A stretch of 64,000 nucleotides of DNA from Enchytraeus crypticus (taxonomy: Eukaryota; Annelida; Clitellata; Enchytraeida; Enchytraeidae): contig CAJHZI010000548.1 in the NCBI GenBank assembly GCA_905160935.1, positions 1-64,000 of the forward strand, in the 5' to 3' direction. Made by a program: the position numbers and the translations under genes. Below are positions 7,401 to 40,200 of this stretch, piece after piece. The notes beneath the pieces were generated by a model. It was not told the origin of the DNA and ran no database searches. It saw only the letters and a list, made by a program, of their open reading frames with translations. Each line of letters starts with the position of its first letter. Within the stretch, counting starts at the first letter, position 1.

Positions 7401-10400
7401 GAAAAACCTACTCGCAATTCATCGGAAAATGATGAAGAGAGAGTGACTACAAATAGAAAGCAAGGGGAGTCGATGAGGAAGAAATCGGAGTCATCAAAAG
7501 CAAAAGCTTCATTGGACGGTGATGCAGGAAAAGTTAGAAAGGGCGAGAAAGTGTCTTCGACGAAGAAAAGGAAATCTTCCTCTTCTTCCTCGTCTTCATC
7601 CTCAGCCGAATCGTCTTCTGGTTCTGATTCAGAGGATGAAAATATTGAGTCAAAGAAGAGAGCTACTGGTAAAGTTAAAGGATCTAAAGATGAGGAGCGA
7701 CAGATGGAAGTTAAAGGAAAGAAACGTGCTGCATCATCTCAGTCGAGTGCTGAAAGTGAAGCGGAGATCTCGTCTAGAGCTTCCAAGAGAAGCGAGAAGT
7801 CGGATAAGAAAGACAAGAGCTCACTGGATAAGAGTGGTTCATCTAAACCAGTTATGGCGGTTCTCCCATTAGTCAGGTCGGGTAGAAAGTCTTCAGACAA
7901 TGATTATTCCAGCGACTCGGAGCATTCGTCCGTTGAAGACGGAGGTGCAGTAAGGCGTGCCTCCACACCTGAAGTGAGAGGAGATAGAGAGAGGAGCAGC
8001 GAGTCAGAGAATGGAGGGAGAAGAGAGAGTCATAGTGCCAGTAGAGGCAGAGATACTAGCCAGGAGAGAGAGGTGAGAAGAGATTCTAGCGCAGACAGTC
8101 GCAGCGCGTCTCGCAGTAGAAACGAGGCAAGACAGGTGAGGGGCGATGAGCGAGATGATAGGGAAAAAATGAGAAGAGAAAGAAGTGATGAGAGAAGAGA
8201 TCAGAGGAGAAATAGAGAAAAGGGAAGTATTGGAAGACATGATGATAGAAGTGGAGGGAGGAATGAAGAAAGAGGAGGAGGAAGAAGAGAGGCAGATAGA
8301 AATACGGATAGAGGTAGAGACGGAGATAGAAGAGAGGAAAGACGAAGTGGAGAAAGAAAGAGGGACAGGAGGGAGCCTGATAGAAGCTTAGACAGGGGAA
8401 GGGACGTACGTAGGAGAGAGGCAGATGGAAGCCCGGATAGGGGAAGAGGGAGAGCGAGGGAAGATAGTAGAGAGAGAAGAAGAGGTAGTCGACGACGGTC
8501 TGAAAGTAGAGATAATGAGAGAGGTAGGAGAGGTACGGAGAGAAGTGAAGATAGAAGAAGAGAGAGGGGTAATTGGAAGAATCGGGATGCCAGTCCTGTG
8601 AGAAGAACTAGAGATAGATCTTCTCCCGTCACTGGCAGACAACAAACAAACAGGTATTTAGCTGTCTCCACTATTTTTACTATTACTATTGTACTATTTT
8701 TTATTATTACTATATTTTTATTTTGTCACTACTATTCATTGCTGATTGCTTTTACTATTCGTTAAAGTTTAGTAAAGGTAGTTGCTACGGCATCTATTAG
8801 GATTGCACCTTCTGATTGCTTGCTACTGTCTGTAGAGCCGTTGTTGGGATATATATGTAACCCGTGGACAGAAGCTGTTCACTCTATCTCCAACTCACTG
8901 TACTTACTAGTAAGTGGAACATTATACCATCCAGCAACACTACAATACAGTTTTGATGCTAATAACGGACGTTAAACCTTTATTATTATTATTATAATGT
9001 TTTGTAGACGTGGCAGGATTTCTCATTATTATTTTTTATTATTATTATTATTATAATATTTTGTAGACGTGGCAGGAGTTTTCATTATTATTTATTATTA
9101 TTATTATTATAATGTTTTGTGACGTGGCAGGAGTTCTCATTATTATTAATAATAATAATATTATTATTATGTTTTGTAGACGTGGCAGGAGTTCTGACTC
9201 CAGTCCTTCTCGCTCCACGCAGCGAAGCAAGGAACCCTTGAAGCAGAGGAAGGCGTCATCGTCTGGGTCAAGGTCAGGGTCTCGTTCAGTGTCGCCCAAA
9301 CGTCGTGTGGAGCCTCCGAGGAAGGCTCAGCGTTCTTCATCCCGATCATCATCATCGTCACCTGAAAGAATTGAACAGAAATCTGGAAAGAATATGCCAC
9401 CACAAAAATCTGATAGGAAGAGAAGGAACGAATCTTCTGAGGTTGTTAAGTATTTTATTTGGAATTTAAAATGATTTGTTTAGCTGTAGAGAGAGTTTAG
9501 TATAATTGTTTAATAAATTAAGTTGATGCATTGCAATATTGAATCAGAATGATACGTTAGGGAGCTATTGTTTATAAATTAGCAGGAGTGCAATCAGAGG
9601 ATACGTTTTAAATTAATGTTAAATATTTTTAGTAATTAGAATTATGAAAAAATGACTATAATTACGTATTTTTTGAATATCATAAAGTTGTGAATTGTAA
9701 ATGTGCTTATCTGAGTTTACCCGGAGTTGTGCATAGTCTAGTAGACTATCCTTGTCTTTCTCTAAAAATAAAAAAGTGTTTCACAATTTTAACAGATTCA
9801 AGGACCTAGCCGACTGGTGACCAGCATATCGATCCCTTCAGAAAGGATTAAGCCTCCTTCAAAACTAAATGTAACCTAGGCATGTGAAAGTAAATTTGCT
9901 TTGTGGGGCAGTTTCCTGTTGCATTCTTCCTCTCCTATTTATTAACTAACTGTATGTGGTCATTTTAAAGTGACCACAACACCAACACAGAAAGCAATGA
10001 CTATAAGGTGGTCTAAATGCATTTATTGATTTACTGAATGACCGACTTAATAATGATTGACGGACTGATTGATTGATTACAGAGTAGCGACAGCAGCAGA
10101 AGTGGCAGTGAGAGGCGAGTTAAAGGCAATGCTGAAAGAAAGAAGATGAGAGCAGACAGCAGTGATGAAGAGGTATTGAGCTAAGCTATCTGTTAATATA
10201 TTGTGCATATTTATGCACAAATTACTACAAAAGCGAGAAGTTATTTCAGTGCTGGATGCACTTATTAAAACAATTTGTATTAGTGTTTAGTGTAGCAGTT
10301 ATTTAATATAAAAATCTAATCAGTGCTTTGCATAATTAATTTAATTGATAACTCTAAGTATCTAAACAGCAGTTTATGAAGTCACTTTTATTGTAGGTTA

Positions 10401-10753: not shown

Positions 10754-10755
10754 TT

Positions 10756-11030
10756 CTACTTTGGAGCCTTTCCATCCAGTGCTCGATCATTTAAACTTTG
10801 GAGCCTTTTCATCCGGCGCTCGATCGTTTAAACTTTGGAGCATTTCTTTCCATCCAGTGCTCGATCGTTTAAACTTTGGAGCCTTTCTTTCCATCCAGTG
10901 CTCGATCGTTTAAACTTTGGAGCCTTTCTTTCCATCCAGCACTCGATCGTTTAAACTTTGGAACGTTTCCATCCAGCGCTCGATCGTTTAAACTTTGGAG
11001 CCTTTCCAACCTGTGCTCAATCGTTTAGCA
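10756..11030. repeat. 3'-UTR minisatellite, ~40-48-bp unit
   Basis: About six copies of CGATCGTTTAAACTTTGGAG joined to a CTTTCCATCCAGTGCT spacer begin immediately after the SRRM1 stop codon. Unless the transcript ends very early, they are in its 3' UTR. The unit includes the 8-bp site GTTTAAAC. Confidence 0.9.
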
Positions 11031-11139
11031 GGTCCAATTCTTCCATTACACTGGTCAGTGACGTGACAGCTTCGATAAACACGAACAGTTTTCGTTGCTG
11101 CAAATTTTCTGCCCTTGTCGTGTCACAATTCCAACGCAT

Positions 11140-11235
11140 ATGTAGAAATGAAGAAGAAAGCGGAAGACAGAGAAGAGTGGAGGCGTGATATACCATGGAC
11201 CTGCCAGTAGGCAGTGCACTAAGAGAGACATAGTC
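11140..11235 (+). mobile_element. 3' fragment of LINE family 2
   Basis: Translation on + gives MKKKAEDREEWRRDIPW followed by a stop. This is the C-terminal end of a LINE-type reverse transcriptase ORF. The same end occurs at 39585-39790, 48105-48220, 50325-50440, 54395-54545 (all -) and in the longer remnant near 60605 (+). Confidence 0.7.
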
Positions 11236-11923: not shown

Positions 11924-11962
<39 letters not shown>

Positions 11963-14261
11963 AAGAAAGAAAGAGAGAACGCATGATACATTTAAGCAAC
12001 TAGACTTGATTATTAAATTTGCGATTGTGTGAATTTCTGAATAAATTTGCTTGAACGTTATTATAAATGTATTCATCAGATCTTGATTTTACAATAGGCT
12101 AAGAATATGGTCGAGTTCAACTTACGTTTTCGTACCATCAGAGACTGAAGTCGACCTAAAACTTGAGTGTAGAGCTAGTCTGACTCCTGCCCAATCATTC
12201 AACTGACTGCGCAACATAACATGCAATTGTAGCACTGGTGTATATAATGTTTAAATTTAAAGTTTATTAAAATACTAGATGTACCTGTGTGCAAAAATGC
12301 ACAAATCTAGAAAAAAAGGAAACTTAACTGAACCTGGATTTGTATTCAATCTCTCAAACGTAAGGCGGACGTTCCACCAAGATACCATACGATACCTATC
12401 AAGAAATCATTATTTACATATTTCTCATTTATGAAAAATGTGTTTTATTTAGGAATTGTAAATATGAGGCAACGATGAAATATTTATTACTCGCCGTAAA
12501 TTTATAGTGGATAAACGACAAAGCTGCAATTAGCGTTACTAATTGGAAATTATGAATATGAACGCAATGAGTCTTCTGGTGCTGTGAAATCCTTCTTCTA
12601 TCTCCCAGTTTTATTTTATCATCGTAACCGTATCTTTGATAGTAACCTTCAGACGGTACTAATGAAAATATGTTAGCCAAATACCCAGCAGTACATAAGT
12701 TCGCAGTAGTGAATTTGTGTTCTATGGCTAGACCTACAAATAGTTATTCTTATCAAGAGCTTCGAAAGGTAAATGAGCTTGGTCACAAAAAACTTAGAGC
12801 TTAGTTACAAAAATTAAATTTAGGCAGAGCTTCGTAACAAAACTGACACAGCTCGTAAACAGGCAAGTGTAAATACTATATAGATTGTGGTGCCTGCTAT
12901 AACTCTTGATATCTATGCTATGGTAAAATGTAAACATGTCGACGATGTTGTTAAATAGTCGTCAATTTGGTTCTCAATTAGGCAAGTTTTTTCTAATTTG
13001 CTTCTAATGTGTCATATATACTACATTTAAATGCATTTGATTAAGTTAGTGCTAAGGTTTACTAGTTACGACATTGGGTTACGACATTTTATAAGTATTA
13101 ATTCAGGCAATCTTTTATGACCTTGGATTTTGTGATTAGTTCAAATATATAATAAAATATAATCAACCATAAAATAAATAATTTGTTACTGGAGTAGACG
13201 AATTAACGATTTAAATGACGATTTAGTATTTTTAAACAATATTAACTAATTTGAATAATTTTGGTTTACAAAATCAGAAATCGCCTTTATACTAGAAACT
13301 GAATAAAGATCTGGGAACCAGAGCAAAATTTAGCCCTGGAAAATGCATAATAATTAATAGTATATAATACTAGCTCAGTATTATCTTGATGCTCGTAGTA
13401 TACACTAGAATAACTTATACTTGCACAGTGTATTTAGAGGTAAGCAATACATTTGTGTTTTTATTAAATTTCTGGTATTGATTTTATTATAGATTTTATT
13501 ATGATAAATAACTTCTTAGGGTACAACCAAATATATATACCTATCCCTGGAACAATCCTCCATATAAAAAGAGAAACAAAGAAAAAATATAGAAAGCGAT
13601 ATATAGAAAGAAATTTCATATATTATTTGAATATATGCTTAATTTTCTGAAAATGCTGAGTTTTTAGTTATATATTATATTTATTCCTGTATGGCAACTG
13701 GTAGGCTAAGGCATGTATAAAATGACTATAGAATTATTTTACATTCTGAGCATGAGTTAATTTTTAATTCAGAATAGGATTTAATATTTATTTTCTTAAA
13801 TACAATAATAAATAATTAATCAGTACATTAATAAATGTGGAGCTTGAAAAAGTTCTGGTTTTTTTAAGATTTAGTTTTGGTGCCAAGTATGTGAACAGTG
13901 ATACAGCAAAGCAGGCTAGATCTCGGAGCATGATTGGTACAAAGCTAGGATTCAAAAGATTGGTGAACTGTGCGATGTATAAACCGTTTGGATCAATCGT
14001 CACCTGTTCTAGAAGCACATTAATAAAATAGTAGGAAACGATGAGTGGCTCTGTTTAATAAATGTTATTTCGGAAAACTTAGCCATTAGAGATCTAAATC
14101 TAAAGAAATTAGTGAGACTGGAAATTCAGACATAACCCCGGTGTATTCTCTGTACCCAATGTGTAGCCAATCGATGATGATGATGGAGCTGCTACTGATT
14201 TAAAAAACTAGATACAATTATAAAAATATATTTATAAAATATATGTAAAAAAACGAATGGA
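11236..14261. other. Intergenic; no gene recognised
   Basis: AT-rich sequence between SRRM1 and the first visible NDUFV1 exon. It holds a (GA)n microsatellite at about 11926-11970 and no other feature I can name. The missing NDUFV1 start-codon exon and promoter should be here. I could not identify a mitochondrial presequence joined to a phase-1 donor. Confidence 0.5.
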
Positions 14262-14326
14262 TGAAAGTCTATTCTTATCCTGACCCTGGTTAAACTCGGA
14301 TTTAGGGGAGGATGATGATGATGATG
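14262..14326 (+). repeat. 3' end of the ~270-bp (GAT)n-tailed repeat
   Basis: This piece matches the terminal third of the family seen complete at 59188-59455 (CCCTGGTTAAACT-like core, then GATGATGATG tail). Confidence 0.8.
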
Positions 14327-14385
14327 ATATTTATAAAATATATATAAAAATATAACGTCAGTCACTCTGATTTTGCTGTTGACAG

Positions 14386-17300
14386 GTGTCCAGCAGTCGA
14401 AGGCGCTGGCGCAATGCTTTCTCTACAATCAATATGCCACAGAGGCTCCTAAACCAGCCGCACCGGCACCACCACCCCCACCCCCTCCACCTGCCAAGGT
14501 ATGGTTGGAATAATGTATGGTTGTAACGATGTGTGGTTGTTATGATGTACATATGGTTGTAATGATGTATGGTTGTAATGATGTATGGTTGTAATGAGGT
14601 ATGGTTGTAATGATGTATGGTTGTAACGATGTATGGTTGTAATGATGTATAGTTGTAACGATGTATTATTGTTATGATGTACATATGGTTGTAATGATGT
14701 ATGGTTGTAACAAGATATGGCTGTAACGAGGTATGGTTGTAGTGATGTATGGTTGTAATGATGTACGGTTGTAATGATGTATGGTTGTAACGATGTATGG
14801 TTGTAACAATGTATGGTTGTAATGATGTATGGTTGTAACGATGTATTGTTGTTATGATGTACATATGGTTGTAATGATGTATGGTTGTAACAAGATATGG
14901 CTGTAACGAGGTATGGTTGTAGTGATGTATGGTTGTAACAAGATATGGCTGTAACGAGGTATGGTTGTAGTGATGTATGGTTGTAATGATGTATGGTTGT
15001 AATGATGTATGGTTGTAATGATGTATGGTTGTTATGATGTATGGTTGTAGTGATGTGCACTTCCTCTTTGATCATTAGAACAATATAGTCGTGTTTGTAA
15101 ATATGAAATATTTGCTGATAATAAATATTAATCATATATTTTTTGTTGCTCTCACGATGCTTTAAAATCCAATTTGATGGGGTAAATTTCAGTTTTATGC
15201 ATTTTAATTATATTGTTTAATATAGTTTAGAATGTTAAAGATACAGGCAGTATTTGGCATTTGTTGTCAAAGTTCTATATATTACTTTCACAGTTGAAAC
15301 ATATTAATGCTGCCTCTATTGGACCTCTATTGTAAACATTTTGTGTTTTTGTGCATGTTGAAGTGTTATAGAAATGCTTTAAATATTGTAGTTTAAAAAA
15401 TGCAATAGTTTTCTAGTAAGTGGCTTGTTTAAACTTATTGATGAACTGCTGATTTAGGTTATAATTTATACTATATTCAGTAATGCTGTACATGGTTTGT
15501 ATAGACAAAGTTTGGAGACTTGAAAGATGAAGACAGAATTTTCACTAATCTCTATGGCAGACATGACTTCAGGCTTAAAGCTTCTATGAAGAGGGTAAAT
15601 GCACAGTTTGTTCTCTGTTTCTGAATATGATTTTTTTCTAGAAAGCAAACAACATATTTGCACATACTGTTTCTATGCAGAGTATTGAGAAGTAATACCT
15701 GAAATTGGCCGAGTGGCTAATTCTCCAAATTAACTATTTTAATGCTAGTCTTGAATCACTTGTAGAAGCGTCATAGTGTACCAGCTGAGAGCGTAACATA
15801 TTTGTTTATTAACATTTTGTTTAATTATAATATATAAAAAATAAATAATCATTTAACGTCCGTTTCCTCATGCAAGGATGATGTCAGGGACGCAAAGTGT
15901 TATCTATTCTTAAAGTGTAATCAAAAAGTGAAATTTTACTAATAATAACATAATATCTTGAAGACCAGTCTCTGTGTCTGTCTCTCTCTCTATATCTCTC
16001 TGTTTGTCTTTCTCTCTGTCTCCATCTCTATAAAATGTCTTTAGAAATGAAAATGTTGCACAATTGTCGTTTAAAGAGCTGATTTGCATTTTCTAATACA
16101 AATGATGTTGTGAATACTAATCTTTTACTTTGTAATATTGATTAGTGTTTGAAAATTTCTTTTAACTTTGTAGTATATTATGTTATATATACTGATTGCT
16201 ATAAATACTGATTTTTCACTTTATGATACTAATTGTGCTGTAATTTTTGTATGTACCTTATTGTACTAAATTACCTACGGTGTGTCCAGGTTGCTGAGGA
16301 TCAACCGTGGACTGCACATGTCGAAAAAGGCTACAAAGCACTAGGATCCAAAAAAACGTCATAACGGACAATCGTTTTTGGGAGCACCTTGGCTCCAGAA
16401 ATTGATACACAATTTTTGAAATGAATGGAAAGGAGATTATTCAAATCCCAACCCCAGTTAAACTGAGATTCAAGGGAAGACGATGATGATGATGACGACT
16501 TTATAGTACTTATACTTTTCTATAAATAAATACTTTATATAATTATATAATAATATAATTTATATAATTATATAATACTTTATATATTTATAAATTATAA
16601 ATTAATAATTTAAATTATTTAAATTATAAGTTATTTAAACTTAAATTTTATAAATACTGACTTTTTACTGATTATGTAGGGTGACTGGTACAAGACGAAG
16701 GAGATTCTGGCGAAGAGCAATGAGTGGATTCAGGGAGAGATGAAGAAGTCTGGGTTGAGGGGGCGGGGTGGGGCAGGCTTTCCCACAGGCATGAAGTGGA
16801 GCTTTATGAATAAACCAGACGACGGAAGGTCTGATTGAAGTTGATTGTCATCGCTGTTTAAATTGATCAAGTTTAGTATTTGTTGTTGATATATCAACAA
16901 CAAATACTAAAATAATAAATTTATCCGGGGGGATTGACTGATGATATGGTGTGGGACAGGGAGGACTGGAGAAAGTCTATTTGTATCCCGACCCTGGTTA
17001 AACTGGGATTTAAGGGAAGATGATGATGATGATGAGTATTTGTTGTTGATGTTCACTGAAGATCAGATTTTGTCTGAATAAAGGCTATGTTACTCTATGG
17101 TTCTCAAAAAGAGCGTAAATCGTAACGGATGGCCACATAATCCTATCAAATTCTGAGGTGAAATTGTAATTGTGTATCCTATTCTGCTCTCAGTTCTTTT
17201 GTCAAATGATGTTTCATTACTTTTTCATACATTTTTTGTAATATCTCACCTACTCTGAAGTAAACTGAAACAAAACAGGCGAGTTTACATCACGGCAGAA

Positions 17301-20260
17301 GATGTTTAACTCAGTTTTACCACCTGAATTCACACTCAGAGATGCTTGTGTTAAAAATTGAGAGTTGTGTATATCTGGAAATGGGACGAAGGTGATCATC
17401 CAGTGTGTTGTCGTTGCAGACCTCGCTACCTGGTTGTCAATGCTGATGAGGGTGAACCAGGGACATGTAAGGACAGAGACATTCTGCGTCATGATCCTCA
17501 GAAGCTTCTAGAGGGTTGTCTTATTGCTGGCAAGTCCATGGGAGCGAGGGCTGGTTTGTATGAATTATGATCTTCAAATGTATCAATAGTATAAAAAGTC
17601 TATGACAGTGGCGGCTAGTTTGTATGAATCATTCTTTTAACATATCAATATTATAACATTGCTGTGTAAAAATGTTTTTGGTGGCTCAGTTTGTGCCACA
17701 TATCTAAGTGCATAGATTTTATTGAGTTACCTGGTTAATGCTGTCAGGGTTTACTATCAGGGTTTGCTATATCAACTCTGCCAATTTTGCAGAAGAAACG
17801 AGCATACTGTTGTAGCATATCTTCACTACTGAGACATTGCTGATGTGTATTGTTGTGGCTTATCTTCACTGCTGAGACATTGCTGATGTGTACTGTTGCA
17901 GCTTATCTTCACTACTGAGACATTGCTGATGTGTACTGTTGTAGCTTATCTTCACTACTGAGACATTGCTGATGTGTACTGTTGTAGCTTATCTTCACTA
18001 CTGAGACATTGCTGATGTGTACTGTTGTAGCTTATCTTCACTACTGAGACATTGCTGATGTGTACTGTTGTAGCTTACATATACATTCGAGGAGAGTTCT
18101 ACAATGAGGCGTCTAATACTCAGCTTGCTATAAAAGAGGTAATGCTTTTTTGTTGCTACTTCATTTGCTAACTGTTTCCTCCTTAAGTCAAGATTTTAGT
18201 AAGGACTATTTGTGTGTGTGGCTTTGAAACCGGGTCTCTCAAGAAAGAAGGCCAGAGGAATTGATATCTGATGAATGTTGATCAAAAACAAGAAGAGTCT
18301 GAAAGAATATGCAAGAAGTTGTTGCTGTTTGTTAATGTTTGTTTATTTAGGAAGTATTAAAGTCCTGAAGCAATGGTTGTGTTCAGTGAATCGCTTTTTC
18401 CTATCAGTAGATATTAGGATTGTTAGATGACATAAAGTATGACTAGCTTGCCGTTATGAAAAGAAAAAAAAAAAAAATGGAGAAACCAGAAAATTTATAC
18501 TCCATCGACGTGCCATTAATGGAAAGAGAGTAATTTGAATAAAATACAAATTGGCCTCTATATTTCATTTTGACATGTGAAAGAAGATGTTTGGATATTT
18601 GTTATTTTATTTTATTTTGCTATTTTAATTAATTGGTCAGCATTTTGTTTTTGTTTATTTAGGCATATGAGGCAGGTCTTCTGGGTAAGAATGCATGCGG
18701 CTCAGGCTATGACTTTGACATTTACCTTCATCGCGGGGCAGGAGCTTATATCTGCGGAGAGGAAACGGTGAGTAGAAGCTGCTCAGAGATGAGCATGATG
18801 GAAGATTGTAAATATTTTCTAGCATATTCTTATGTATTTTTTGCAGAAATAATTTAGCGACATTTTCGTATTTATCAATTTTTGTTAACATTTTTTTATT
18901 TACAAGAATTTACATTTCAAGAGCATGGTCAAGAAGAGGTAATTTGATTACTTTATGTTCTGGTGCAGACAGTGTTTCTGAAAGCTTGCCTCTCTTTAGG
19001 CATAGATTTTGTATCGTTGTAGTCATTAAACTGTAGATATCTATTGTCATTTTACATTATTATTATAATTATCATTAGATGTCATTAATCATTATACTGT
19101 AGATATCTATTGGCTGATAATTCTTACTGATTGGTTGTATTCAGTCGCTGATTGAGTCACTGGAAGGTAAGCCAGGCAAACCTAGACTGAAGCCGCCGTT
19201 CCCCGCAGACGTTGGAGTGTTCGGTTGTCCTTCAACTGTCAACAACGTGGAGACCATTGCCGTGGCCCCGGTGAGTGATTGCTGATATGGTGCCAGGAAC
19301 GATATGTTTATTTATATAGAGAAGAATTCATCTTGATTCTATCATTGATCGACTAGGTTTTAACAAAGGCTTCAGATCTGAAGGTGATGCCAGGAAGTAG
19401 AATATTTATACAGATCGGCAGTTAGTTTCGAAGCAAGGTTGATTATTTATTTGATCAGTGTTAATGATTTAACAACGTCTAATTATAATAATGCGCAGTT
19501 GTAATGTTGTTATATCTAAGGTTACTTGTTTTATCATTACTGTTAGTAGTGGTGCCAGCAATTACTTGATAATAGACTGACTATGTATCATACATATATC
19601 CTATGTATTCGTTTGTGATATGTTTTATGTGATATGTTTTAAGAGCCAGTTAGTGCAGTTTGATTTAACACTTGAAAGTAATTTTCGTAAATGTATAAAA
19701 CATTTTGCAGACAATTATACGCAGAGGGGGCGATTGGTTTGCTGCTTTTGGACGACCCCGGAACACTGGCACAAAGGTTTGATTGAGCCTTTCGTAAAAA
19801 TGATAAATTGATAATAGTCGTAGCAATTTATCACAATAACATTCATATCACTTGGGGTAATACTCTCGCATCCACAGAATGATACTCTCGCATCCACAGA
19901 ATGATACTCTCGCATCCACAGAATGATACTCTCGCATCCACAGAATTGAGTCTGACGTTTGATGGTGACTTTTGTCTTTAATCCTGTAGGAGTTATGCTA
20001 GCTTTTAACTTTAGTCATTAAATTGTTTTGTAATTTATAGTTTTACTAATTTTGATCTTTATATTGGCATTTAGAATAATGGCGCTGCGCCGACTATGCA
20101 ATATCTTGCTTTAAGCACTATTGTCTTATTGGATCACAGATCAGATGAGCCAGGGTCTAAACGCATGGTCTAATGCAAACTACCAACTCAGTCATGCAAG
20201 CTGTACAAAATATAGAAACATATAGAATGCACTTTTTATGTAGTGTATTCGAGTTTTATA

Positions 20261-20358
<98 letters not shown>

Positions 20359-23300
20359 GTATATTATAGTAGAAATATATACTCATGTATATTGTAATGC
20401 AAGTGTATTATATTGTATTTTAGGTGTATATATTATTGCTATGCGTTGCAGCTGTTCAACATCAGCGGTCACGTGAATCACCCGTGCACTGTGGAGGAGG
20501 AGATGTCGGTGCCGCTGAGAGAGCTGATAGAGAGGCACGCTGGCGGGGTCATCGGGGGGTGGGACAACCTGCTCGCTGTCATACCTGGGGGCTCCTCAAC
20601 CCCCCTCATACCCAAGAGGTCTCCCTGCTGTTTTACTTTTCTGTTGCGCGATTAAATTAAAATGTTTTAGTACCTTTTTGGAAATTTACGAAAATACATT
20701 GTTCTGCTTGATAACACTCAAATATTTTATTATCTTTTGAATATATATGAAATTCATAGCATCTTCGTAATAAAGTTAAAATATTGTATTATCTTTTGAG
20801 CACTTATGAAATACATTGCATCTCATGCATTGTTTTATATGTTGTTTGTGGAGGTCTCTTGAAATTTTTACGAAACGTATTAGACTAGTTTTAATAAGAA
20901 CATTGTGTATTTTATGTAGTTTTATGTGTAGTGTATGTTTTTATAAAGTGTAATATGCTGTTATGTAAAATATGTGTTTTTATGTACAATGCTTATTTAT
21001 TGCGCACCATATGACTTCATACATATTTTGATTGAGCTGATTGTGTTTATGTGCAGTGTATGTGACACTGATTGTTTTATGTGCAGTGTATGTGACAGGT
21101 GCTGATTGTTTTATGTGCAGTGTATGTGACACAGTGCTGATTGTTTTATGTGCAGTGTATGTGACACTGATTGTTTATGTACAGTGTATGTGACACTGAT
21201 TGTTTTATGTGCAGTGTATGTGACACTGATTGCTTTTTTGTGCAGTGTATGTGATACTGATTGCTTTTTTGTGCAGTGTATGTGACACGGTGCTGATGGA
21301 CTTTGATGACCTGGTAGCCAAGCAGACAGCTCTGGGCACAGCCGCTGTGATAGTCATGAACAAGAGCGCAGACGTTGTTCACTGCATCGCTCGACTCATC
21401 GAGTTCTACAAGCACGAGAGCTGCGGCCAGGTATCTACAATCAATCAGTTGATTCTGAGTAATCAGCTTTCTACCAGTCTAATGTTGAATATCTTTTGCT
21501 ATATCAGATATATGTATACTATCTTTTAAATATCAGATGTTGAATAAAGTATCTTATGTTACAAGTAAGCTTAATTTCATTATGTAGTTTTTAACTGATG
21601 GAGCTCATTCTGGTATCGTTCATTGTCAACTGATTTAACGGCCATTGCGTTAACGTGATGTGACCCCTCTCGTTGTTGTTGCCATTCCGACAGTCTTAGG
21701 GTGTAACATTTGTAGTGTTCAATGCTGTCGATCAGCTTATAAATGTAGCCTTTGTTTTCTAATTTCTGAAAAATTGTCCTTATTTTGTATGGACTTCTCT
21801 AGTTTTAAAATAGGTTTGTTTATTTTGAAACTACAGTGTACTATTGCAGGAGTAAAAAAGTCAAACACGCATTATAGTGAAATGATCAACTATGTTGATA
21901 TCTATCACTTTTAATACCACATGTTTAAACCGTTAGGCATTTGAGACCATTTTCCGTATAACCAGTCCAATACTATTAATATTGAATGTGTGATGCAGAT
22001 TATACCTCAGTGTTGTGCGTGTTTATTTTGAACAGTGCACGCCGTGTCGTGAAGGTGTCGGCTGGATGAATCAAGTCATGGAGCGTTTCGGTGAGTCTAG
22101 TAGTAATTTCTGAGCGGTGTATCGATCACATAGACCTGTTTGTAGTGTGTCTGTTTCTCGGATTGTTGGGCTGATTTTCGTTTACCACAGAGTTTTATGC
22201 GCTCTAATGGTGGATCATAAACTGGTGGTGAGCCCTATCTTATGAACTCTCTTACGCACAATGCTCGACTCAACTTTTCTATTCTTGGTACTATGTGATG
22301 TAAAATAATTGCTGTTGTAGTTGTGTACTTTAATATTATCAGTATTATCAACAGCTTGTTAGTAATATTTTCTAAGTGCCAGTTTATTAAAATGTGGTGT
22401 ACGTAAAAAGCTAATGGTAAAGCAAATTTTAACGTCAGTTTCTTCACTCGAAAGCGATGCCAGTGACGGATTTGCCCAGGATTTGAACTCCACACATACT
22501 TATCCGCGATCGAATATCTTGCCGACATCGCTCCAGCCAGTATGTTGAAATATATGATGTATGCGTTAAGGGGCTTGTGCTGATACCTTGTAATATGTAA
22601 TTTGGTTTATCAGATATTTTTATATATTTTTTCTTAATACGTCAGTTGTGCAGGGATATTTTATTCTAAGTAGTTAGTTTAGTTGTGGTAGTCAATGTTT
22701 TATTATTCATCTTCTTATTCATTCAAGAATATAGGTTTAGTTATGGAAAACACTGACTGACTGTTTTCATTCAAGAATATTGTGCTGTGAGAAACAATTT
22801 GAAAACACTGATAAAAACAATGTGCTGACTGTGTGTAGTGAAGGGGAAGGCTAAAGCACAGGAGATTGACATGTTGTTTGAGATGAGCAAGCAGATTGAG
22901 GGTCACACTATCTGTGCTCTGGGTGATGGAGCGGCTTGGCCTGTCCAGGTATAACATAAAACACACGTTATAACTGATCTTACAGGTGTAACATTGTAAC
23001 TGATCATACAGGTGTAACATCAAACACTCACTATAACTGATCATACAGGTGTAACATCAAACACTCACTATAACTGATCATACAGGTGTAACATCAAACA
23101 CACACTATAACTGATCATACAGGTGTAACATCAAACACACACTATAACTGATTATACAGGTATAACAAACACACCATATAACTGATCATACAGGTGTAAC
23201 ATCAAACACACACTATAACTGATTATACAGGTATAACAAACACACCATATAACTGATAATACAGGTGTAACAGTAAACACGCGTTATAACTGATATTATA

Positions 23301-25925: not shown

Positions 25926-26129
25926 TATAGAAAGAGTTGCATAAATAATTCATTGAGACAGTGCCAAATCGGTTTACAGTCTCGATCGATTTTCATAGGT
26001 ATGCTGTTCGATTCATAGAGCTCGCCATTACAAATACACTCTTGCTTTTAAAATATCGCCATAAAGTTTGCTTTTGGCTATTTCTTGGCTACCTCTGGCT
26101 ATAGCTACTTCTCATACTGATCGGATGGC

Positions 26130-26292
26130 CGAATATTAATAATAATTAAAATAAAGGTTGAACGTCCGTTTCCTTATCCAAGAATGGATAGCAGGCTTAC
26201 CTCAAAAGTAGGAGGACATCGGTTCGAATCCCAGCTGGAATGACTCTGACAGAATTTGTGATACGCAAGCAGCTGTTAAACTTGGCATTCCA
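26130..26292 (+). mobile_element. Diverged tRNA-like SINE remnant
   Basis: It contains a perfect RNA polymerase III B-box match (GGTTCGAATCCC at about 26220). At its left edge is AACGTCCGTTTCCT, the reverse complement of the common SINE tail. The two parts point in opposite directions, so this may be two overlapping fragments. Confidence 0.5.
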
Positions 26293-26296
26293 TCTA

Positions 26297-28203: not shown

Positions 28204-31200
28204 TTACAATCCACCACCGCTCCTGCTGATTGGTATCTGTCTCAGTTCTTCACTCAGCTCCGCAGCTTTAGCGAATCTAGACGACGACACCGAACCTTTC
28301 TTCAGTGCGCTCATCAACTGTCGCAACAAAACCACAATCATCAATAATTTTTCAATGATTGTATATTGGACTCTCTCATAGTCTATTGCCGGAAAACGAT
28401 ACTGGAGTGAAAACTGGGTGTTCAACCGGAAAGGATGCCATGCGTCCTCTTTGATGGCCTAGTTTTTATTCAATTTATTATATACATTTTTTTGTTTTTG
28501 TTTTATTTTTGCACTTACAGGACGTATTGCACTTATTACCTAGATTCTGATAATGCCTATTTAATTTTTTCACGCGTTCATTGATGTGATTACTCTGTGA
28601 AATTTTGTGAAAATAAAACAAATTTCTCTCTCTCTCTCTCTCATCATCGATTAAATAATTTATCGACCCATCGTAAATGATTGACTGATTCGCAAATATT
28701 GAAAATCTACAGTCAGTTGGGTACACTGGGTGACAAGGCGTAAGCAATGCAATAAAATTAAAGATCATCTGCTTCTGATGCATTCGACGACTGTCAGTGT
28801 ACGTCGAAACAAGTCGAGCATGGCGATGAAATGATAGACGGCTATAGGCCACTTTGAGCACATAAAATAACTACCGTGCAGATAACAGTAAGATAGGGAA
28901 TATTATGCACATTTTAATATATCAGTAGATATAAGAAAATAGACCTATTAAAGAAACAGACTTGCGTCTATAATAGTATCTGTAACTACTACTACAGTCG
29001 ATTTTACGCGCAGTTGCATGTCCTACGTTTAAAGGTAGCTACGAACCAATAAACTTTATCAGACAGCTAGAGCAACCAATTAGACTATCACTAGAAAAGT
29101 GCAGGTCGGTTGGTTAGTTGGATAGCAGTAAGATATCACAATCACTTGAGAAGCACTCAACTAGCACTACTAACTGAGAAGTTCTCATTTGAAGCACAAG
29201 TCAACCTCAGCTGATCAGCCAGATTTTACAGTAAACTCATCTTACCTGAAGGAACTCTCCGAGATCCACCTGAGCGTTCTTGTTCAGATCAACCTCCCTG
29301 ATGATGGCGTGTAACTGATCCTCTGACACCATCTCTCCAGATTTCTACACATCACAACATGCATTTCATCTTATTCCGCCAAGGATACACTTTTCATCTT
29401 ATTCCGCCCCGGATACACTTCATCTTATTCCGCTCCGGATACACTTTTGTGTAGGGTAAAACGTAGGATTCATAATTCCAATAATTAGTAGCACCAGCAT
29501 AAACAAACGACTAGTTTATCGAATAACATCACAAGTTCAGAGTATGAATATAATAAACTAAAAAATGAAAAGCAACCTAGAGAATTTAATTTGTAATCTA
29601 ACATTAATTCAGATAAAATTAAAGAAATAACTAAAATCTATCACCTGGTGATAAGATTTTTTTAAAATGAATAAATAACTATGAGAGCGACCTTGAAGTA
29701 AGCCCTCAGATCATTGATGGTGATGTAGCCCTTGTTGTCAGTATCGAGAGCTCTAAATCTCTTCATGTAGGCGTTGATCTCGTCCTTAGTGAAGTTGATG
29801 GGCACATTCGTGCTCTCGTCCTTCAAGTTCAGGCCCATCTCTAGCCGCAGGAATCTCATCGCATGCTCGTACTCCTCCTGTAGAAATCACTAATAATAAT
29901 TATTATTATCTTAAATTAAGATAATAATTATTATCTTACATTAAGATAATAATTATTATCTTAAATTAAGATAATAATTATTATCTTAAATTAAGACAAT
30001 AATTATTATCTTAAATTAAGATAATAATTATTATCTTAAATTAAGATAATAATTATTATCTTAAATTAAGATAATAATTATTATCTTAACAGCGACGATA
30101 GTGTCGCCAACGCCAACACATTAACTTATAAGTAAAACTCAAAGCTAAGGTAAAGCTAAGGTTAATGTCAGTTTCCTCACTCGAAAACGATGTCAGTGAC
30201 GGGCGAGCCCAGAAGGCTTGAAGCAGACTGCCATTGCATTTTCTATTTGCCACGATCTCAGCGCCATTGTCGAGGAGATGGTTATTTATTAAACACGCAA
30301 AGATTTACAGAGGTTTCGGAGAAGAAAGACACAATATACTAAACATGTTACAGACTAGAGGACGTTAACTAGAACCCACTCTCTCTTTCTGCTTGGACCA
30401 GCCGAGCTCTTTCGACATGATCTCAATGATGCGCGGCAGAGCCTCCTCCGCAGCGTGAACGTTGAGAAAAGCCAGACGTGTGCGACGAGCCAGCACATCC
30501 ACAGCACGTGCAGCATACTCCCTCACAGCGTATATCACCTGAATACAATACACCTCACAGCGTATACCACCTGAATACAATACATCTCATAGCGTATATC
30601 ACCTGAATACAATACATCACACAGCGTATATCACCTGAATACAATATATCTCGCAGCGTATATCACCTGACTACAATACATCTCACAGTGTATATCACCT
30701 GAATACAATACCTCTCACAACGTATATCACCTGAATACAATACATCTCACAGCGTATATCACCTGAATACAATACATCTCACAGAATATATCACCTTATT
30801 ACAATACATCATACATCATATATCATCACAATACAATACATAACTTATAGTATATATCATCTAAATACAATATAATACATCTCACAGCGTGTATCATCTG
30901 CATACAAAGCATATCGTGTGTCCCCTGCCATTTACATTCTGCTATTTATGAATACCTCCGAGGTATCCCATAGCTCTATCATAGTGTACATCTAACAAGT
31001 ACAGAAGGTATACTACACTACCAGGACTTATAATATACAGAATAACTGCATACTACACATTCTTATGACAGAAGCAATAACTAAGCACATCTCAACTGTT
31101 TCTCTCTCATTTCATCTCACGAAGACACTAGATCTAAACATTCGACCTGTTTTAAAAATAAAACCACACTCAAAGCATACATGTACAATTGTACATGTAA

Positions 31201-34200
31201 ACTTAAATAGCATAGATACAGACAATATAAAGTTAAATAAAAAGTAAAAATATTTTATTCTATAACACACTAGAGTAAAGCTAGATAGTTAGTCATACAT
31301 CACATTATTACATCAATATACCCCACTGCACTCGCGTGGACATGGATAGTTCTCACGTAGAATCATCTAGCTACTGCCCAGAATTAACATAAACTTTAAT
31401 TAAGGATCAATCAACTAACCTCAGCCTCTATATAAGGATAATCCTCATGCAGCCTTCGACCAACGACCGGCCAACGCTTGCCCGTTAACTGCGCCAATCG
31501 AGCAACCTTCATCGCTCTGTCACCATATGTAGCTGATAGGTGCTGTGCTACCTGTCAATCAAGCAATCAATAAATCACAAATCATCAGTTAATGTATTAC
31601 TTAAATCAATTAATCAATCAAACAGTTACAAGATACAAGTCTTTAAAGAGTGAGCAAAAGTTCATCGCTTCATATCAGGCAGATAGTTACAGTGACAAAA
31701 AAATACAAAAGTTACGTACGATACACAAGTCACTTAATAACACACTGAAAATATGACATTTTTAGGAAATTTTTAATGTAGACTGATACAGGCAAGAACA
31801 CAGCAAAAGTCAACAAGTACTTAACATTAGAGAGCACAAATGATCAACGATCATATAATAATGCCTTGCGCTTAAAACGTTAAAGTTTAATCTGATTTTA
31901 TTTTTTATAGAATAGATAGCAGAGTAAGGTATAGATAGCAAATAAAATATAATTGATGAGCAGTGTAGCCAGAGTAGATTATCTTGAAAGATCTGAGTGA
32001 AGCAACATCACAGCACACACAATCAATAGCGACGAGAGCATACAGCATATGTCTCTATACATATAGGTATACGGAGCATACAGCATAGATCTCTACACAT
32101 ATAACAGCATAGATCTCTACACATATAGGTGTATACGGTGCATACAGCATAGATCTCTACACATATAGGTATATACGAAGCATGCAGCATAGATCTCTAC
32201 ACATATATGTGCATATGGAGCATACAGCGTTGTCGAGGCCAAAGTCTTGAATGAGTCTGATGAAGAGAGTGGGCGACCAGTTGTGAGCGCCGTCCAGCAG
32301 CAGACCCTTCGTCACACAGCCAGTGCTTGACTGCAGCTTAAACTCCTCCACACATCTGTCTACCGTCTCCTCAGCCATGTGCCGATACGTCGTCCACTTA
32401 CCTCCTACCAATCAACCAATCAATCAATAAATCAATTAAACGATCAACCAGTCAACTAATCAATCCATTACAAGATCAATCAGTCACCCAACCAATCAAT
32501 CAAATCAATTAAACAATCAATTACAAATAAATCAATTAAAACGTCAATAAATCAATTAAACGATCAATCAGTCAACCACACAAGCAATCAATTCAATTCG
32601 AAGTCAATATATAATCAAGAACTAAGAAAAAATAATAATAATAAATAAATAAAAGAAGTAAATAATAAATAAATATAAATAATAATAATAATAATAAATA
32701 AATAAAATATTTAAATAATATCAAATAACAAAAAAACAGCAAAGTTAATATCAAATCAAGTCAATAAATCAATTAAACAATTGTTGAAATTTATTCTGCC
32801 TACAATATCGCTCTAGAAAATTGTATTTTTGACACGCTTTAAAAGATGCAATACATAATAAATTATATAAAAGATAAATTTAAATAAATTTATATGTTAT
32901 ATATTGACATTGCCTATGGCAATGTTAATAAATGACATTGCCACAAAATATTAATATTAGTTTTTTTTCATTGCTAGTTTTCACCAACATTCATAAGAAC
33001 ATATAGGAACCAATGCATGCATCCAGGTTTATAAAAACATCTGTTAGAATCATTTGCTATCAAGTATATATGAGCAATAGCAGCAAAACTATTAAAGGTA
33101 GACAGCAATCAATACCGTCAACTTTGGTAGATGAATATTTTAGAAGATCTCAAATATTAATATTGAAATCTAAAATTCGATTTCAAACACCTATTTCCTT
33201 AAGTTACATTAGCCACTTACCAGCAATAGTGATGAGTTCGTTCTTAACTAAAGATAATTAGACACTTACCAGCAATAGTGACCAGCTTGTTCTTAGCTGT
33301 AGATAATTAGCCACTTACCAGCAATAGTGACAAGTTTGTTCTTAGCTGTAGATAACAAGAGACTTACTAGCAATAGTGACCAGCATGTTCTTAGCTGTAA
33401 ATAACAAGAGACTTACCAGCAATAGTGACCAGCTTGTTCTTGGCTGTAGATAACAAGAGACTTACCAGCAATAGTGACCAGCTTGTTCTTGGCTGTAGAT
33501 AACAAGAGACTTACCAGCAATAGTGACCAGCTTGTTCTTGCTGTAGATAACAAGAGACTTATTAGCAATTGTGACGAGCTTGTTCTTAGCTGTAGATAAT
33601 TAGCCACTTACCAGCAATAGTGACAAGTTTGTTCTTAGCTGTAGGTAACTAGAGACTTACCAGCAATAGTGACCAGCTTGTTCTTGCTGTAGATAACAAG
33701 AGACTTACCAGCAATTGTGACCAGCTTGTTCTTGCTGTAGATAACAAGAGACTTACCAGCAATAGTGACCAGCTTGTTCTTGCTGACGTCGATGATGTGG
33801 TTCCTGGCAATGGACTGAGTGTCCGCAGCATTCGGGTTGACAACCAGTGGACGTATACCACTCCAAGCAGACAACACATCTCCTCTTCTAACTGTCACAT
33901 AGCACATTACAACACATCTTCTCTCCTGTCACATTGCATAACACATTACAACATATCTCTGTCACATAGCACAACACATTATACTACATCTCCTCTCCTA
34001 ACTGTCACTCACATAACACAACACATTACAACAATCTCTGTCACATAGCATAACACATTACAACAAATCTCCTCTCCTAACTGTCACATAGCACAACACA
34101 TTATACTACATCTCCTCTCCTAACTGTCACTCACATAACACAACATATTACAACATATCTCTGTCACATAGCATAACACATTACAACAAATCTCCTCTCC

Positions 34201-37200
34201 TAACTGTCACATAACACAACACCTTATAACACATCTCCTAACTGTCACATAGCATAGCACATTACAACACATAGCTCTTCTTCTAACAATTAACAGAACA
34301 TCTGAGATTCAAATGGATGACCTCCAGCTTATCAAGCAAGTAGGTTATTAATCCTCCAACAGCACAGCACGAACAGTAAATATAATATTGCATTATCTAG
34401 TAAAAAACACGTAAATATAATACAGCATTATCAGGTAAATAACACTTTAACAGGATAAATCTCTCCTGTTAAAAATTATACTATAACTAGGCTATCCAGG
34501 ATATAATGCTATGGCCAGGATATAAAATAATACACACCATCACTAATGAATCTAATCAACTCAACTAAGCAAATAACTTGAAATAAGAAATCAGAATAAT
34601 ACATATTTAAATAGTCCAATTAAATAAATTAATCAAATCCAATAATCAAATAAACTAGTAAAATCCAATATTCAAATCTACTAATTAAATTAACTAATCA
34701 AATCATACAATTTGTTACTATTACGTCCACTCTGGATTTTAAAGCAATATCAACACCTGCATTGAATTCCGTAAGCATCAGACAGCGAATGAACAGCTTG
34801 ATTTAGACATTAGAATCTATCAGCGCGTACAAACCATTAACGTCGGGACTGAGGTAGTTTCTGATCTCCTGCAGAATAAACTGAATCTCGGCCTCTGTCG
34901 GCGTCGGGTTATCAGTCACTGTAGAGTGCTGGTCTGTGGTTCCTAGAGATTGAAACAGTCAAAACATCATACGATCAATACAAATCCATGAAAAACCATC
35001 AGTCAAAAAAAACACACATTATAGTGAAATGATCAACTGTGTTGATAACTATCACTTTTAGTACCACATGTTTAAACCTTTAGGCAATTTTAGTCCATTT
35101 TCCATATAACCAGTCCAGTGAATGTCCGAGATTTTACTCTCAGATTAGCGCGGCTGGGATTCGAACCCACGAGGGTTCCAATCACCTCAGGATCTGTCAT
35201 TTAAAACTTCACGATGTTACACCTACGCTATTAAGTCATTCACGTCACCGCAGAGTGCTGGTCTGTCGTTCCTACAGGTTAAAACAGTTAAAACATCATA
35301 CAATCAATATTAATCCATGAAAAACAATCAGTCAGCCAGGTTCTTTAGTGATATAGTATTATCTGTCAACCCAAACTATCAATCCAGATTACCTAACTTA
35401 TTTCATATATTTTAAGCTAATACTAATATAGATCCAAACCATTCAGTTAAGACGTCAGTTTTAAAACCAACAATGCAAAAACCTAATACCAAGAAGCTAA
35501 CAATGCACAGTATAGAAACACCTACAATACAGACCGGCCATCGTTGAATGCTCCCAGGGTAGAAAGAATATGACACGCCCATCAGACGTAGAGGGATCCA
35601 GGAGACCCATGTTAGCCGGGCTACAACAGCCACATACATCGTCTATAACTAGAATGTCCCAATAGCGTGGGGGTAACGTCATGAAATTTTAAATGACAGA
35701 TCCTGAGGTGAATTGAACTCTCGCGGGTTCGATTCCTGGCCGTGCTGATCTGAGAGAAAATCTCGGACATTCACTGGACTAGTTATACGGAAAATGGTCT
35801 AAATTGCCTTACGGTTTAAACATGTGGTGTTAAAAGTGATAGATATCAACATAATTGATCATTTCACTATAATGCGTGTTTACTTTTAACTGCAACCGTT
35901 CATTCCAGTTCCTGCTCTAATGAAACAACTAAAAAGAGTGTATCATTTGGCAGATGTGGAGGGTGACAAAAGTTAAGAGTCATTCATAGTCTATTAAACA
36001 CATCGGTGTCTTACTAATCACTAAATTACAGACAAAGAAGTATTAAAGAGCATGACAAGGGGTAGCTGTCGCTCGAGCTAGCTTAGTCGACTGATATTCA
36101 TTTCTGGTAAATCAAGTTCCACTCTGTAGAGCGATGAATAACGGACAATCAACAACCTGTAATAGTCAGGTAGAACAATGTGAACACCAGAACTCGGCTG
36201 ACATATTGGCTTCTGAGCACTGTCGTCCATCTTACGTATAAAATCCGTGTAGGGTCCGGTAGCATTGACGACACACTTAGCACGAATGTCATAAGTTTGA
36301 CCTGCAAGTAGAACACATAAAGTAATAAAGATAAAAAGCATGGAAAGAGAAAGCTTATTAATTCATATGGGAGCCATGGAATCAATTTGGAAAAGTAGAT
36401 TATATAGATTACAATATTTCTTATGAATGGGTTAGATAAACGTAGACCAAACTACTTCCAACAGATCTATATAATTTCCATCAGTGGCGAGCAGTAGTTT
36501 AATAGAGAATACACTAAATGTAGATTATTATGAGCAGAAGATGCTTTATGAAAGAAATGACTATTTCAATCACTTGTCAGTCAAGTCATCCCAAACAGAA
36601 AATTGAAATAAAGTCTGACTCTGCTATAAACATGTAGTTCAAATTAATTAAAAAGAAAGCATAGTTGGTAAAAAGATTTTAATTGACTTAAATTGCTAAT
36701 TTTACCAAATGACCATGACTTACAGTACTTGAACTGCATTGTACTCAATTCAACTTATATACCTTCACACTACTACATACGACCAACTTCGCCACTGTCT
36801 GGAGCCAGTGGCGATGTCGGTTAGATACTCGACTGCGGATCAGCATGTGCGAGGTTCAAATCCTAGGCTCGTCCGTCACTGACATCGCTTTTGAGCGAGG
36901 AAACGGACGTTAACCTTAGCTTTTTAGCTTTTTCAATGTTTGCCAATATTTAGGCATTGATTACCATGATCATAGTATGTGCACAAACGATAAGGATTAA
37001 ATTATGCAGCTGGCAACTGGAGAAGTGAAATCCTGATACATCTGTATAAACTAAACGAAGCCTATAACAAAAACCAACCTGATATCTGGGTAGAAATATC
37101 ACTCAATATTCAGCACAACTGTCCACTGTATACATGCTAACCAGTTTCAGAAGGAGTCGAGATTAGTTACTGAGAGGAAATTGGTAGTTATAGTTACAAG

Positions 37201-40200
37201 AAAGGATGACGTCCTTGAAATCATCCTTGCATCACAAAACGGACCTTAAACCTTTATTATTATTATTATTATTAAATATCAATCAACCCTAACCTGACAG
37301 ACGGTCTCTAACGCGTGCACCGCCCACGACCATGTTTCCATTCTCATCAGCTGTTCTCAACAGCTCTATGACCTCTGTGTGATTGGCTATGTTAGCTCCC
37401 ATGCGCGCAGCCGTCATTACGACAGATATGCACATCCTAGCGTCGTCGTGCTGACCTACAGGTCAATCAGTGCATACACAGGTCAATCAGTGCATACACA
37501 GGTCAACCAGTACACCATAGACATACACATCCGAGCGTCGTCGTGTTGACCTACAGGTCAATCAGTGTTGTTTCGTTGTTTCTGTGTTGTTTCCCAGATA
37601 TTGAGGAATAGATCAACCATTAACTGATCTAAATATTAGAGATAATCTTGCTGTGGCCCTTAGGAAAGTAAAGAGAATTAAAAGCACATTTACATTGAAA
37701 AGTATAGTAGACAGCACATCGAACAATCTTAAACACTGACAAATATAGCCGAGGAGCTAGCATAACGACAACCAGCCGTTTAGGCCTATCGAGGAATCTA
37801 TCTAACAAACTATCCTTTAAAGCAAAAACAAGCATTAAAAGAACCAGTTTAGTCTACGGAATTTGGTTGAGTAATTACGTGATTACAACAGTAGCGGTAA
37901 TACCGTCATAGTAGACGATGGCCCCGACAAGCTTGTTCTGTTTCAGCATGGGAAAGAGCTCGAGAGCCTTCGACTTGGAGAGAATGTAGCTTGACTTGAG
38001 TCTCTGTCGTCCCGCCACCATGTCGTACATCTTTATACCAGCGTAATAGTAGGGCAGCTGCCACAGCCTACAGACAACAGCAATCATCTAATAGTAGGGC
38101 AGCTGCCACAGCCTACAGACAACAGCAATCATCTAATAGTAGGGCAGCTGCCACAGCCTACAGACAACAGCAATCATCTAATAGTAGGGCAGCTGCCTCA
38201 GCCTACAGACAACAGCAATCATCTAATAGTAGGGCAGCTGCCACAGCCTACAGACAACAGCAATCATCGTAATAGTAGGGCAGCTATCACAGCCTACAGA
38301 CAACAGCAATCATCTAATAGTAAGGCAGCTGCCACAGCCTACAGACAACAGCAATCATCGTAATAGTAGGGCAGCTGCCATAGTCTACAGACAACAGTTA
38401 TCATCTAATAGTAGGGCAGCTATCACAGTCTAAAGACAACAGCAATCATCGTAACAGTAGGGCAGCTGTCACAGCCTACAGGCACTATTGGATACTTGTA
38501 GACAGGCAGCAGGTACTACATACTTGTAGACAGGCAGCAGATACTACATACTTGTAGACAGTCAGCAAGTACTACATACTTATAGACAGGCAGAAGATAC
38601 TACATACTTGTAAACAAGCAGCAGATACTACATACTTGTAGACAAGCAGCAAATATTACATACTTGTAGATAGGCAGCAGATACTACATACTTGTAGACA
38701 GGCAGCATGATAGGCAGCGGATGAGCAAGATGGGGAGCTATCTGCAGAAGGTTTCCTCGCTCAGCAAGAGCTTCCTTCACCATCCTGTACTGCTCACGAT
38801 CCAGACCAAAGACGGCTTTTTGCAGGTATCTCACACCTCCGTGCAGCAGCTTTGTGCTGCGACTGCTTGTGCCCGATGAAAAATCAAACTTCTCTACCAG
38901 TGCCGTGCACAGACCTGCACAAATAGCATAGAAACAAGAGAAATTTCGATTTATAATGGCACATATGACAATTATCTTAAATGATTGGATCTCTTGAATT
39001 TCTTGGTCAATGGACCATTGTGTTTGAAGGCAGATAGCGAGTACGAAAGTGTACCTTAAACCTGTCTATCCACAGTACACGAGAAAAAAATGTAAACACG
39101 CATTATAGTGAACGATCAACTAGGTTGATATCTATCACTTTTTAATACCACATGTTTAAACTGTCAGGCAATTTAGTCCATTTTCCATATAACCAGTTCA
39201 GTGAATGTCCGAGATTTTACTCTCAGATCAGCACGGCCAGGAATCGAACCCACGAGGTTTCAATTCACCCCAGGATATGTCATTTAAAACCTCATGACGT
39301 TACCCATACGCTAGTAAGACATTCGAGAGAGAGAATAGTAATTATGAAATGATAAATATTTTTCTCTCACCCCTGCTGACAGCATCAAGCGCCACGCCGC
39401 ATCCAGTGGCGCCACCACCGATGATCAAGACGTCGTAGTACTTGGTCTGCAGAGAGTTGATCTGCTCCGCTCTGCTTGGCAGCTGAGTGTTTGCAAACTT
39501 CTGCTGCTGCTCCAGGCTCAGCTCACACCCACTCGCTGATAAACGCTGTGATTAAACAAATCAATCAGTAAGAGACATGTTATCTCTCTCTCTCTCTCTT
39601 AGTGCACTGCCTACTGGCAGATCCATGGTATATAATGCCTTCACTCTTCTCTCTTCCGCCTTCCTCTTCATTTCCACATATGAGTGGGTCGTTAAATCAT
39701 CTAACATACCTAATTTTGGTCTGCCTCTGCCTCTTTTTCCTTCCAGTCTACCTTATATGACCTCTCTTAAAATGACCTCTCTTCCTCTCGTAGAATGTGT
39801 CTAAACCCACTCTTCTTCCTATTTCTTAATACATTATATATTTGCTAAGATATAACTTCTAAAATACAGTCGGTATTCTCAGCTAAATCTTTGAGTGCTT
39901 GAATGCATATCATTCTGCATACCATTTTCTTGTATAATAAAGGTTTAACGTCCGTTTCCTCATACAAAGATGATGTCAGGGACGTCCTCCCATCACATGT
40001 CACTACAAATCGATTCACCTCAGGCGCTCTGAAAAAACATGTGCTGAACTGCACTCATATAAACTGCACACCCTTCCATTTTACATCATTGGTCGACTGA
40101 TAAAGGATTTCAGTGGAATATGTGGCACAGTCAGATATTCTCAGATATATAAGCACACTTTCTCTCAACTGATATTATGCTGATTGAGGTAAACTACTTG

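Follow-up and report, generated by a model that had tools for sequence, protein, structure and literature searches.

Why do so many intronic minisatellites in one annelid genomic region end at the edge of an exon? The region is a stretch of 64,000 nucleotides of Enchytraeus crypticus DNA (contig CAJHZI010000548.1; hereafter the window). All counts given here come from its assembly, which comprises 802 contigs and 524,188,772 bp. A preliminary description of the window had listed 12 splice junctions at which tandem arrays adjoin an exon and had proposed a recurrent process acting at exon borders. The window has a GC content of 36.4% and contains part of a gene that we take to be SRRM1 and the NDUFV1 gene on the plus strand, and GPD2 and what is presumably a cyclin B gene on the minus strand; NDUFV1 and GPD2 were identified through homologues. 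Exon models of the four genes, built by hand and checked through translation, gave 46 introns with a total length of 31,355 bp, of which 45 have GT-AG and one has GC-AG splice dinucleotides.

Tandem copies adjoin all 12 of the listed junctions (acceptors 9180, 18074, 21277, 38067, 37455, 33891, and 30538; donors 14498, 22948, 38692, 33757, and 32226), and at all of them except 37455 (11 junctions) the donor or acceptor is contained in the repeat unit. The arrays anchored on splice sites are thus borne out. By Tandem Repeats Finder (TRF), 11 of the 12 junctions are crossed by an array or have an array edge within 6 bp. Array positions were compared with a null in which each intronic array was put at a random intron position and could extend over at most 30 exon bases (2000 shuffles). 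At a TRF score of at least 100, 12 of 22 window arrays crossed a junction or came within 6 bp of one, against a null mean of 3.16 or 3.44 and a maximum of 11; the twelfth array in this TRF count, at acceptor 32404, is a run of the CAAT/TTGA type and is absent from the preliminary list. The excess was also seen at scores of at least 50 (12/34 versus 4.3–4.5) and at least 200 (9/16 versus 2.5–2.7), and when a whole unit was allowed to overlap the exon (12 versus 3.8–3.95). Under this last null, junction-crossing arrays were likewise in excess (8/22 versus 3.1–3.3, P = 0.006–0.008). Four array ends fell 0 to 7 bp inside the junction, where 0.6–0.7 were expected; such a pile-up just inside the junction is expected if the exonic part of an array diverges under coding constraint.

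Because the window had been chosen for its junction arrays, other genes of the assembly were tested. A gene list had been fixed beforehand (VCP, EEF2, ATP5F1B, CLTC, HSP90AB1, and ATP5F1A), of which only EEF2 entered the test; among the matches listed for the VCP search, none was close enough for VCP, the long ones being 31–56% identical and the best 70% over 30 residues. The test set therefore consisted of those loci matched by EEF2 or VCP that had a usable reference, namely 12 gene copies: EEF2, EFTUD2, PSMC1 (two), PSMC2, PSMC3, PSMC4 (two), PSMC5 (two), PSMC6, and NSF. Ten regions with no good reference were excluded (L005+L026, L006+L007, L012, L013, L017–L019, L024, L025, and L027); when L012 and L027 were modelled with NSF, two arrays touched a junction in the former and no array did so in the latter. 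Three of the 12 models ended early in translation at an unresolved junction, and these three junctions were completed from an alternative model. Of 88 introns, 83 were kept, and the five removed for weak or gapped junctions included two junction-crossing arrays (in PSMC6 and the L023 copy of PSMC5). In this set, 21 of 44 arrays lay within 7 bp of a junction or crossed it, against 6.5 under the null with whole-unit overlap. The cut-offs of 6 and 7 bp were chosen after the data had been seen, and the count was still 21/44 with a cut-off of 10 bp set beforehand; within 25 bp it was 24 versus 8.7–9.3. Fourteen of the 44 arrays crossed a junction (5.5 expected), and seven ends fell 0 to 7 bp inside one (1.0 expected). 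Clear cases by eye are a donor of PSMC4, where 81 bp units that include 36 exon bases are repeated, and an acceptor of PSMC5, whose 36 bp unit extends over 1017 bp. The pattern thus returns in other genes of the assembly, and in the window and the 12 gene copies alike array ends are closer to junctions than random intron positions are.

Some of the acceptor arrays consist of TTGA runs. Removal of the eight arrays out of 67 with at least 30% TTGA-type sequence left 28 of 59 arrays at a junction in the two sets together, against 9.4 expected and a maximum of 21 in 3000 shuffles; separately, the counts were 11/22 versus 3.95 in the window and 17/37 versus 5.5 in the other genes. These 28 arrays lie at 11 donors and 17 acceptors, so that both kinds of border are affected, as had been proposed. 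These results indicate that, in the examined genes, roughly one in two of the stronger intronic arrays stops at the border of an exon, many of them repeating the splice site of that gene. This is about threefold more than under a placement that tolerates splice-site duplication, and the excess concerns where arrays end and not how much they cover.

The arrays resemble a class already known from amphioxus. Passages in two papers describe “mirages,” in which exon-intron boundaries are duplicated in tandem in the manner of minisatellites, for Adh and globin (PMC3087553, where Canestro 2002 is cited as a source) and for TnC and PGBD5 (PMC3902484), and with these boundary-spanning minisatellites in print, the earlier suggestion of something undescribed does not stand. 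As in mirages, the units here are of minisatellite size and arranged head to tail, they carry the boundary of the host gene itself, whether 5' or 3', and they bring many AG or GT copies in variable copy number. Unit sizes overlap: 16–59 bp in ten aligned window arrays, and 10–72 bp in Adh3 and 150–160 bp in the globins of amphioxus (PMC3087553). Normal mRNA splicing despite the copies, another mirage trait, would be compatible with what is seen at the protein level: the exon-side models of the window genes and the other genes translate without internal stops and agree with homologues, and by eye the 485-amino-acid protein of another source, to which the window NDUFV1 is 95% identical, has no insert at the array-bearing junctions. 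Unlike in the amphioxus passages, which proceed gene by gene and remark that the phenomenon is possibly more general in cephalochordates, the host is an annelid, roughly every second strong intronic array of the examined genes is involved, and the excess over random placement has been measured. Among the open-licence matches listed, there was no report of junction arrays outside amphioxus or genome-wide, which is weak evidence of absence. The closest annelid case among the matches listed is that of earthworm metallothionein genes, clitellate genes whose first introns hold large minisatellites (PMC12783039); anchoring at splice junctions is not mentioned in the passages concerned. The junction arrays are thus real, recur across the genes examined, and belong to a known but little-studied kind.

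We consider it probable that the arrays are mirage-type minisatellites that arose from silent duplications of junctions, and for the position of their ends we favour persistence. Directly seen are the arrays, the duplicated splice sites, exon-side copies that are intact and encode conserved proteins, and an excess of ends that is roughly threefold in the window as in the other genes. A small segment spanning the junction would be duplicated in tandem, and the spliceosome would keep using the exon-side copy, whereas the other copies, with their exon bases, would become intron; the duplication would be silent because the exon-side copy is spliced and the remainder is removed. The array would afterwards expand and contract as an ordinary minisatellite. 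Silent duplication accounts for the toleration of arrays but not for the gathering of their ends at junctions. For the latter, the exon-side copy, being under selection, could serve as a standing seed from which the array is re-seeded, and array ends would retract to the junction since coding sequence is unable to drift with the array. In the ten aligned arrays, the splice dinucleotide columns agree with the consensus of the unit in 216 of their 223 cells, compared with 3040 of 3246 in the other columns (Fisher P = 0.06); the copies therefore have no sign of silencing.

Several results weigh against this reading. Per position, duplication was not raised at junctions: 12 of 92 had further copies, versus 1086 of 5737 interior intron positions (18.9%). 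The junctions with further copies include nine of the 12 in the preliminary list, and none was found at 14498, 22948, and 32226, where the unit holds 0–3 exon bases. The lack of enrichment is attributable to amplification, which inflates interior coverage; amplified arrays occupy 17% of the intron DNA in the window. EEF2, with eight introns, has no junction array, its sole array being mid-intron. Arrays at junctions and arrays in intron interiors are similar in internal identity (medians of 89.0 and 90.5%, P = 0.29; 33 and 34 arrays), and junction arrays therefore do not appear older. Exon-proximal copies are nearer the consensus in about five of ten arrays, farther in two, and tied in three, which is a weak gradient. 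Finally, units shared by duplicated PSMC genes lie beside exons with raised identity at fourfold sites, which points to gene conversion over long persistence.

The causes first proposed for the arrays fared differently. If duplications landed anywhere and those at junctions were seen because splicing hides them, the per-position counts just given would follow, but the null with whole-unit overlap predicts 3.8–3.95 arrays in the window and 6.5 in the other genes where 12 and 21 were observed; tolerance alone, underpredicting about threefold, is improbable. The other proposed cause, a mutation bias, has tandem duplications commoner at exon borders, through breaks, R-loops, steps in base composition, or nucleosome edges, so that the arrays mark their birthplace. 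This is possible, if somewhat doubtful: the threefold excess holds for donors and acceptors alike, the internal identity of junction arrays gives no sign of greater age, and their units are longer than those of interior arrays (median of 47 versus 30.5 bp, P = 0.004), but no observation here singles the bias out or backs it directly, break-prone motifs and joint signatures not having been searched for systematically. Between the two accounts of the excess we lean, loosely, towards persistence, with the bias as its chief rival.

Selection for redundant splice signals, in which extra donors, acceptors, or branch-point motifs aid exon recognition in AT-rich introns, would fit the slightly better preservation of splice dinucleotides and the TTGA runs near 3' intron ends; however, 80 of the 92 junctions lack any further copy by the per-position test, and the excess survives removal of TTGA-rich arrays, which makes TTGA runs a largely separate feature, so we regard this explanation as unlikely. 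Introners are copies of one element inserted into many genes, and the link of the present repeats to introns and splice sites resembles them. The units here nevertheless appear local and mutually unrelated: when the 12 arrays were compared by blastn with the window and with other loci totalling 240,504 bp, outside matches were many for 9180, apparently from its ATT-rich part, and three and weak for 30538, with none for the rest. A dispersed mobile element or introner aimed at splice sites is accordingly very hard to credit, and in these sequences there is no sign of one mobile repeat, in line with the original remark. If the assembly is the one made for E. crypticus with MaSuRCA from long and short reads (PMC8460440), copy numbers may err, but copies that diverge by several percent, the same pattern on several contigs, and units common to paralogues render an assembly artefact highly unlikely. 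Tandem duplication of AG|GT as a route to intron gain is a further relative of the silent duplications preferred here, and the potato RdRp gene is said to be a case. The proposal goes back to Rogers 1989, where AG|GT proto-splice sites are duplicated (cited in a passage of PMC3087553). In both systems a stretch with splice sites is duplicated, and one 37 bp unit of NDUFV1 is itself GT...AG, but the copies here sit within introns.

Duplicated PSMC genes allowed the arrays to be compared between paralogues. PSMC1 (L020/L021+L022), PSMC4 (L008/L009), and PSMC5 (L014/L023) are each present in two copies, with synonymous divergence of 0.6, 0.78, and 0.9, respectively, and the three old pairs gave 18 paired introns with 36 flanks. 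At 11 of these flanks one copy or both carry a junction array, and the five flanks that align best (score of at least 25) all belong to these 11 (P = 0.0012), but the proportion fell to 5/8 at a score of at least 17 (P = 0.04) and to 5/11 at a score of at least 13 (P = 0.25). One acceptor array common to the two PSMC5 copies measures 1017 bp in one and 90 bp in the other, which suggests that array copy number is labile between these paralogues and may parallel the length instability of mirages. Fourfold-site identity is raised in the exons beside several shared arrays, for example, 47/51 in two PSMC4 exons versus 47/99 in the rest of the gene. Long persistence argued from arrays shared by paralogues was not retained, being weakened by this raised synonymous identity of the same exons and by the dependence of the flank test on the cut-off. 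The plain reading of the patchy identity between these sequences would be gene conversion, and junction arrays may promote it, although three genes make a small sample. More broadly, it is a real if still tentative possibility that a genome-wide process of this lineage goes on producing or retaining tandem duplicates of exon borders; intronic minisatellites would then be seeded mainly from exon edges, and the same arrays would serve as sites of recombination between paralogues.

The mirage reports found concern a few amphioxus genes. New here are the annelid host, the involvement of both borders of several housekeeping genes, an intron made up almost wholly of a donor array and an acceptor array, and a measured excess of about threefold. 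If exon edges are the commonest site of intronic minisatellites in so distant an animal group, mirages pose a general question, namely why splice junctions are where repeats stop. One worm genome would then offer many test cases for intron lengthening, for intron gain from duplicated borders, and for splice choice among up to about 34 near-identical sites.

The individual arrays differ in unit and in the length of exon included. On the plus strand, the SRRM1 acceptor array (8980..9195; junction 9180) has units of 58–59 bp with 16 exon bases. In NDUFV1, the donor array at 14499..15056 consists of about 34 copies of a 16 bp unit, GTATGGTTGTAATGAT, which begins exactly at the donor GT after 14498 and contains zero exon bases. 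Two NDUFV1 acceptor arrays follow, with a 43 bp unit and four exon bases (17805..18077; junction 18074) and a unit of 30–31 bp and 12 exon bases (21037..21288; junction 21277). The second donor array of this gene (22949..23294; junction 22948) has the 37 bp unit mentioned above, which runs from GT to ACAG; because its first copy is degenerate, the array is visible at the donor by alignment only, the TRF start lying at least 22 bp into the intron. NDUFV1 intron 1 (12981–14386) is apparently the intron of GC-AG type.

GPD2 carries its arrays on the minus strand; in a tree of 31 rows, its window protein fell next to three proteins (sources lgn and jgi) and, with one further row, beside that of the annelid Ridgeia (support 86/93). 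The exon 3 donor array (38492..38712; junction 38692) has a 28 bp unit with 21 exon bases by the TRF edge, and the exon 4 acceptor array (38044..38481; junction 38067) has a 45 bp unit with 24; together they make up almost the whole intron at 38068–38691, both with exon bases in the unit. At the exon 5 acceptor (37456..37577; junction 37455), the 20 bp TRF unit ends 2 bp before the exon and does not include the AG, and one separate junction-spanning copy is 48/54 identical and includes 37 exon bases. Exon 9 is flanked by arrays at both borders. Its acceptor array (33892..34272; junction 33891) has units of 32–43 bp in a 123 bp higher order, and the 20 bp surrounding the junction have five further copies, with about 16 exon bases recurring by eye; its donor array (33215..33785; junction 33757) has a 49 bp unit with 29 exon bases by the TRF edge. 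The exon 10 donor array (32042..32228; junction 32226) has a 40 bp unit with three exon bases, and the exon 12 acceptor array (30522..30907; junction 30538) a 32 bp unit with 17. An array of a near-palindromic 25 bp unit at 29896–30089 lies 18 bp off a GPD2 acceptor and does not span the junction.

In cyclin B (minus strand), the start of exon 6 (47237..47377) recurs within the intron, at about 47624–47713, as a second copy that has decayed; this case was not among the junctions of the preliminary description. The copy aligns with 58 matches, 17 mismatches, and 14 gaps (score of 31 versus a maximum of 20 in 200 shuffles) and may be an old mirage whose exon part is long. An upper limit on the exon part, read as a limit set by exon definition, was considered, as it is below 50 bases in all 22 crossing arrays (P = 0.009 if uniform; Kolmogorov–Smirnov P = 0.047), but is not claimed because the cyclin B copy has about 60 exon bases and the cut-off was picked post hoc.

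TTGA runs were counted in 90 bp segments across 129 introns, those of the window together with those of the other genes. On the sense strand, runs occur in the last 90 bp of 26/129 introns, in the first 90 bp of 0/129, and in 27/785 interior segments (P = 3e-10), and no antisense runs were found within the first or last 90 bp. The branch-point consensus is YTNAY, which TTGAT words fit, and the runs may be arrays of branch points.

Scans of the window with Rfam (gathering scores) and ARAGORN gave zero matches. By eye, two decayed-looking copies of an element with a reverse transcriptase of the type without long terminal repeats lie at about 45500–47200 and 54680–56220, one of them within a cyclin B intron. 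A word resembling a tRNA B box (GGTTCGAATCC type) recurs near 26221, 35156, 35726, 39240, 50971, 53413, and 55892, perhaps derived from a tRNA-derived short interspersed nuclear element.

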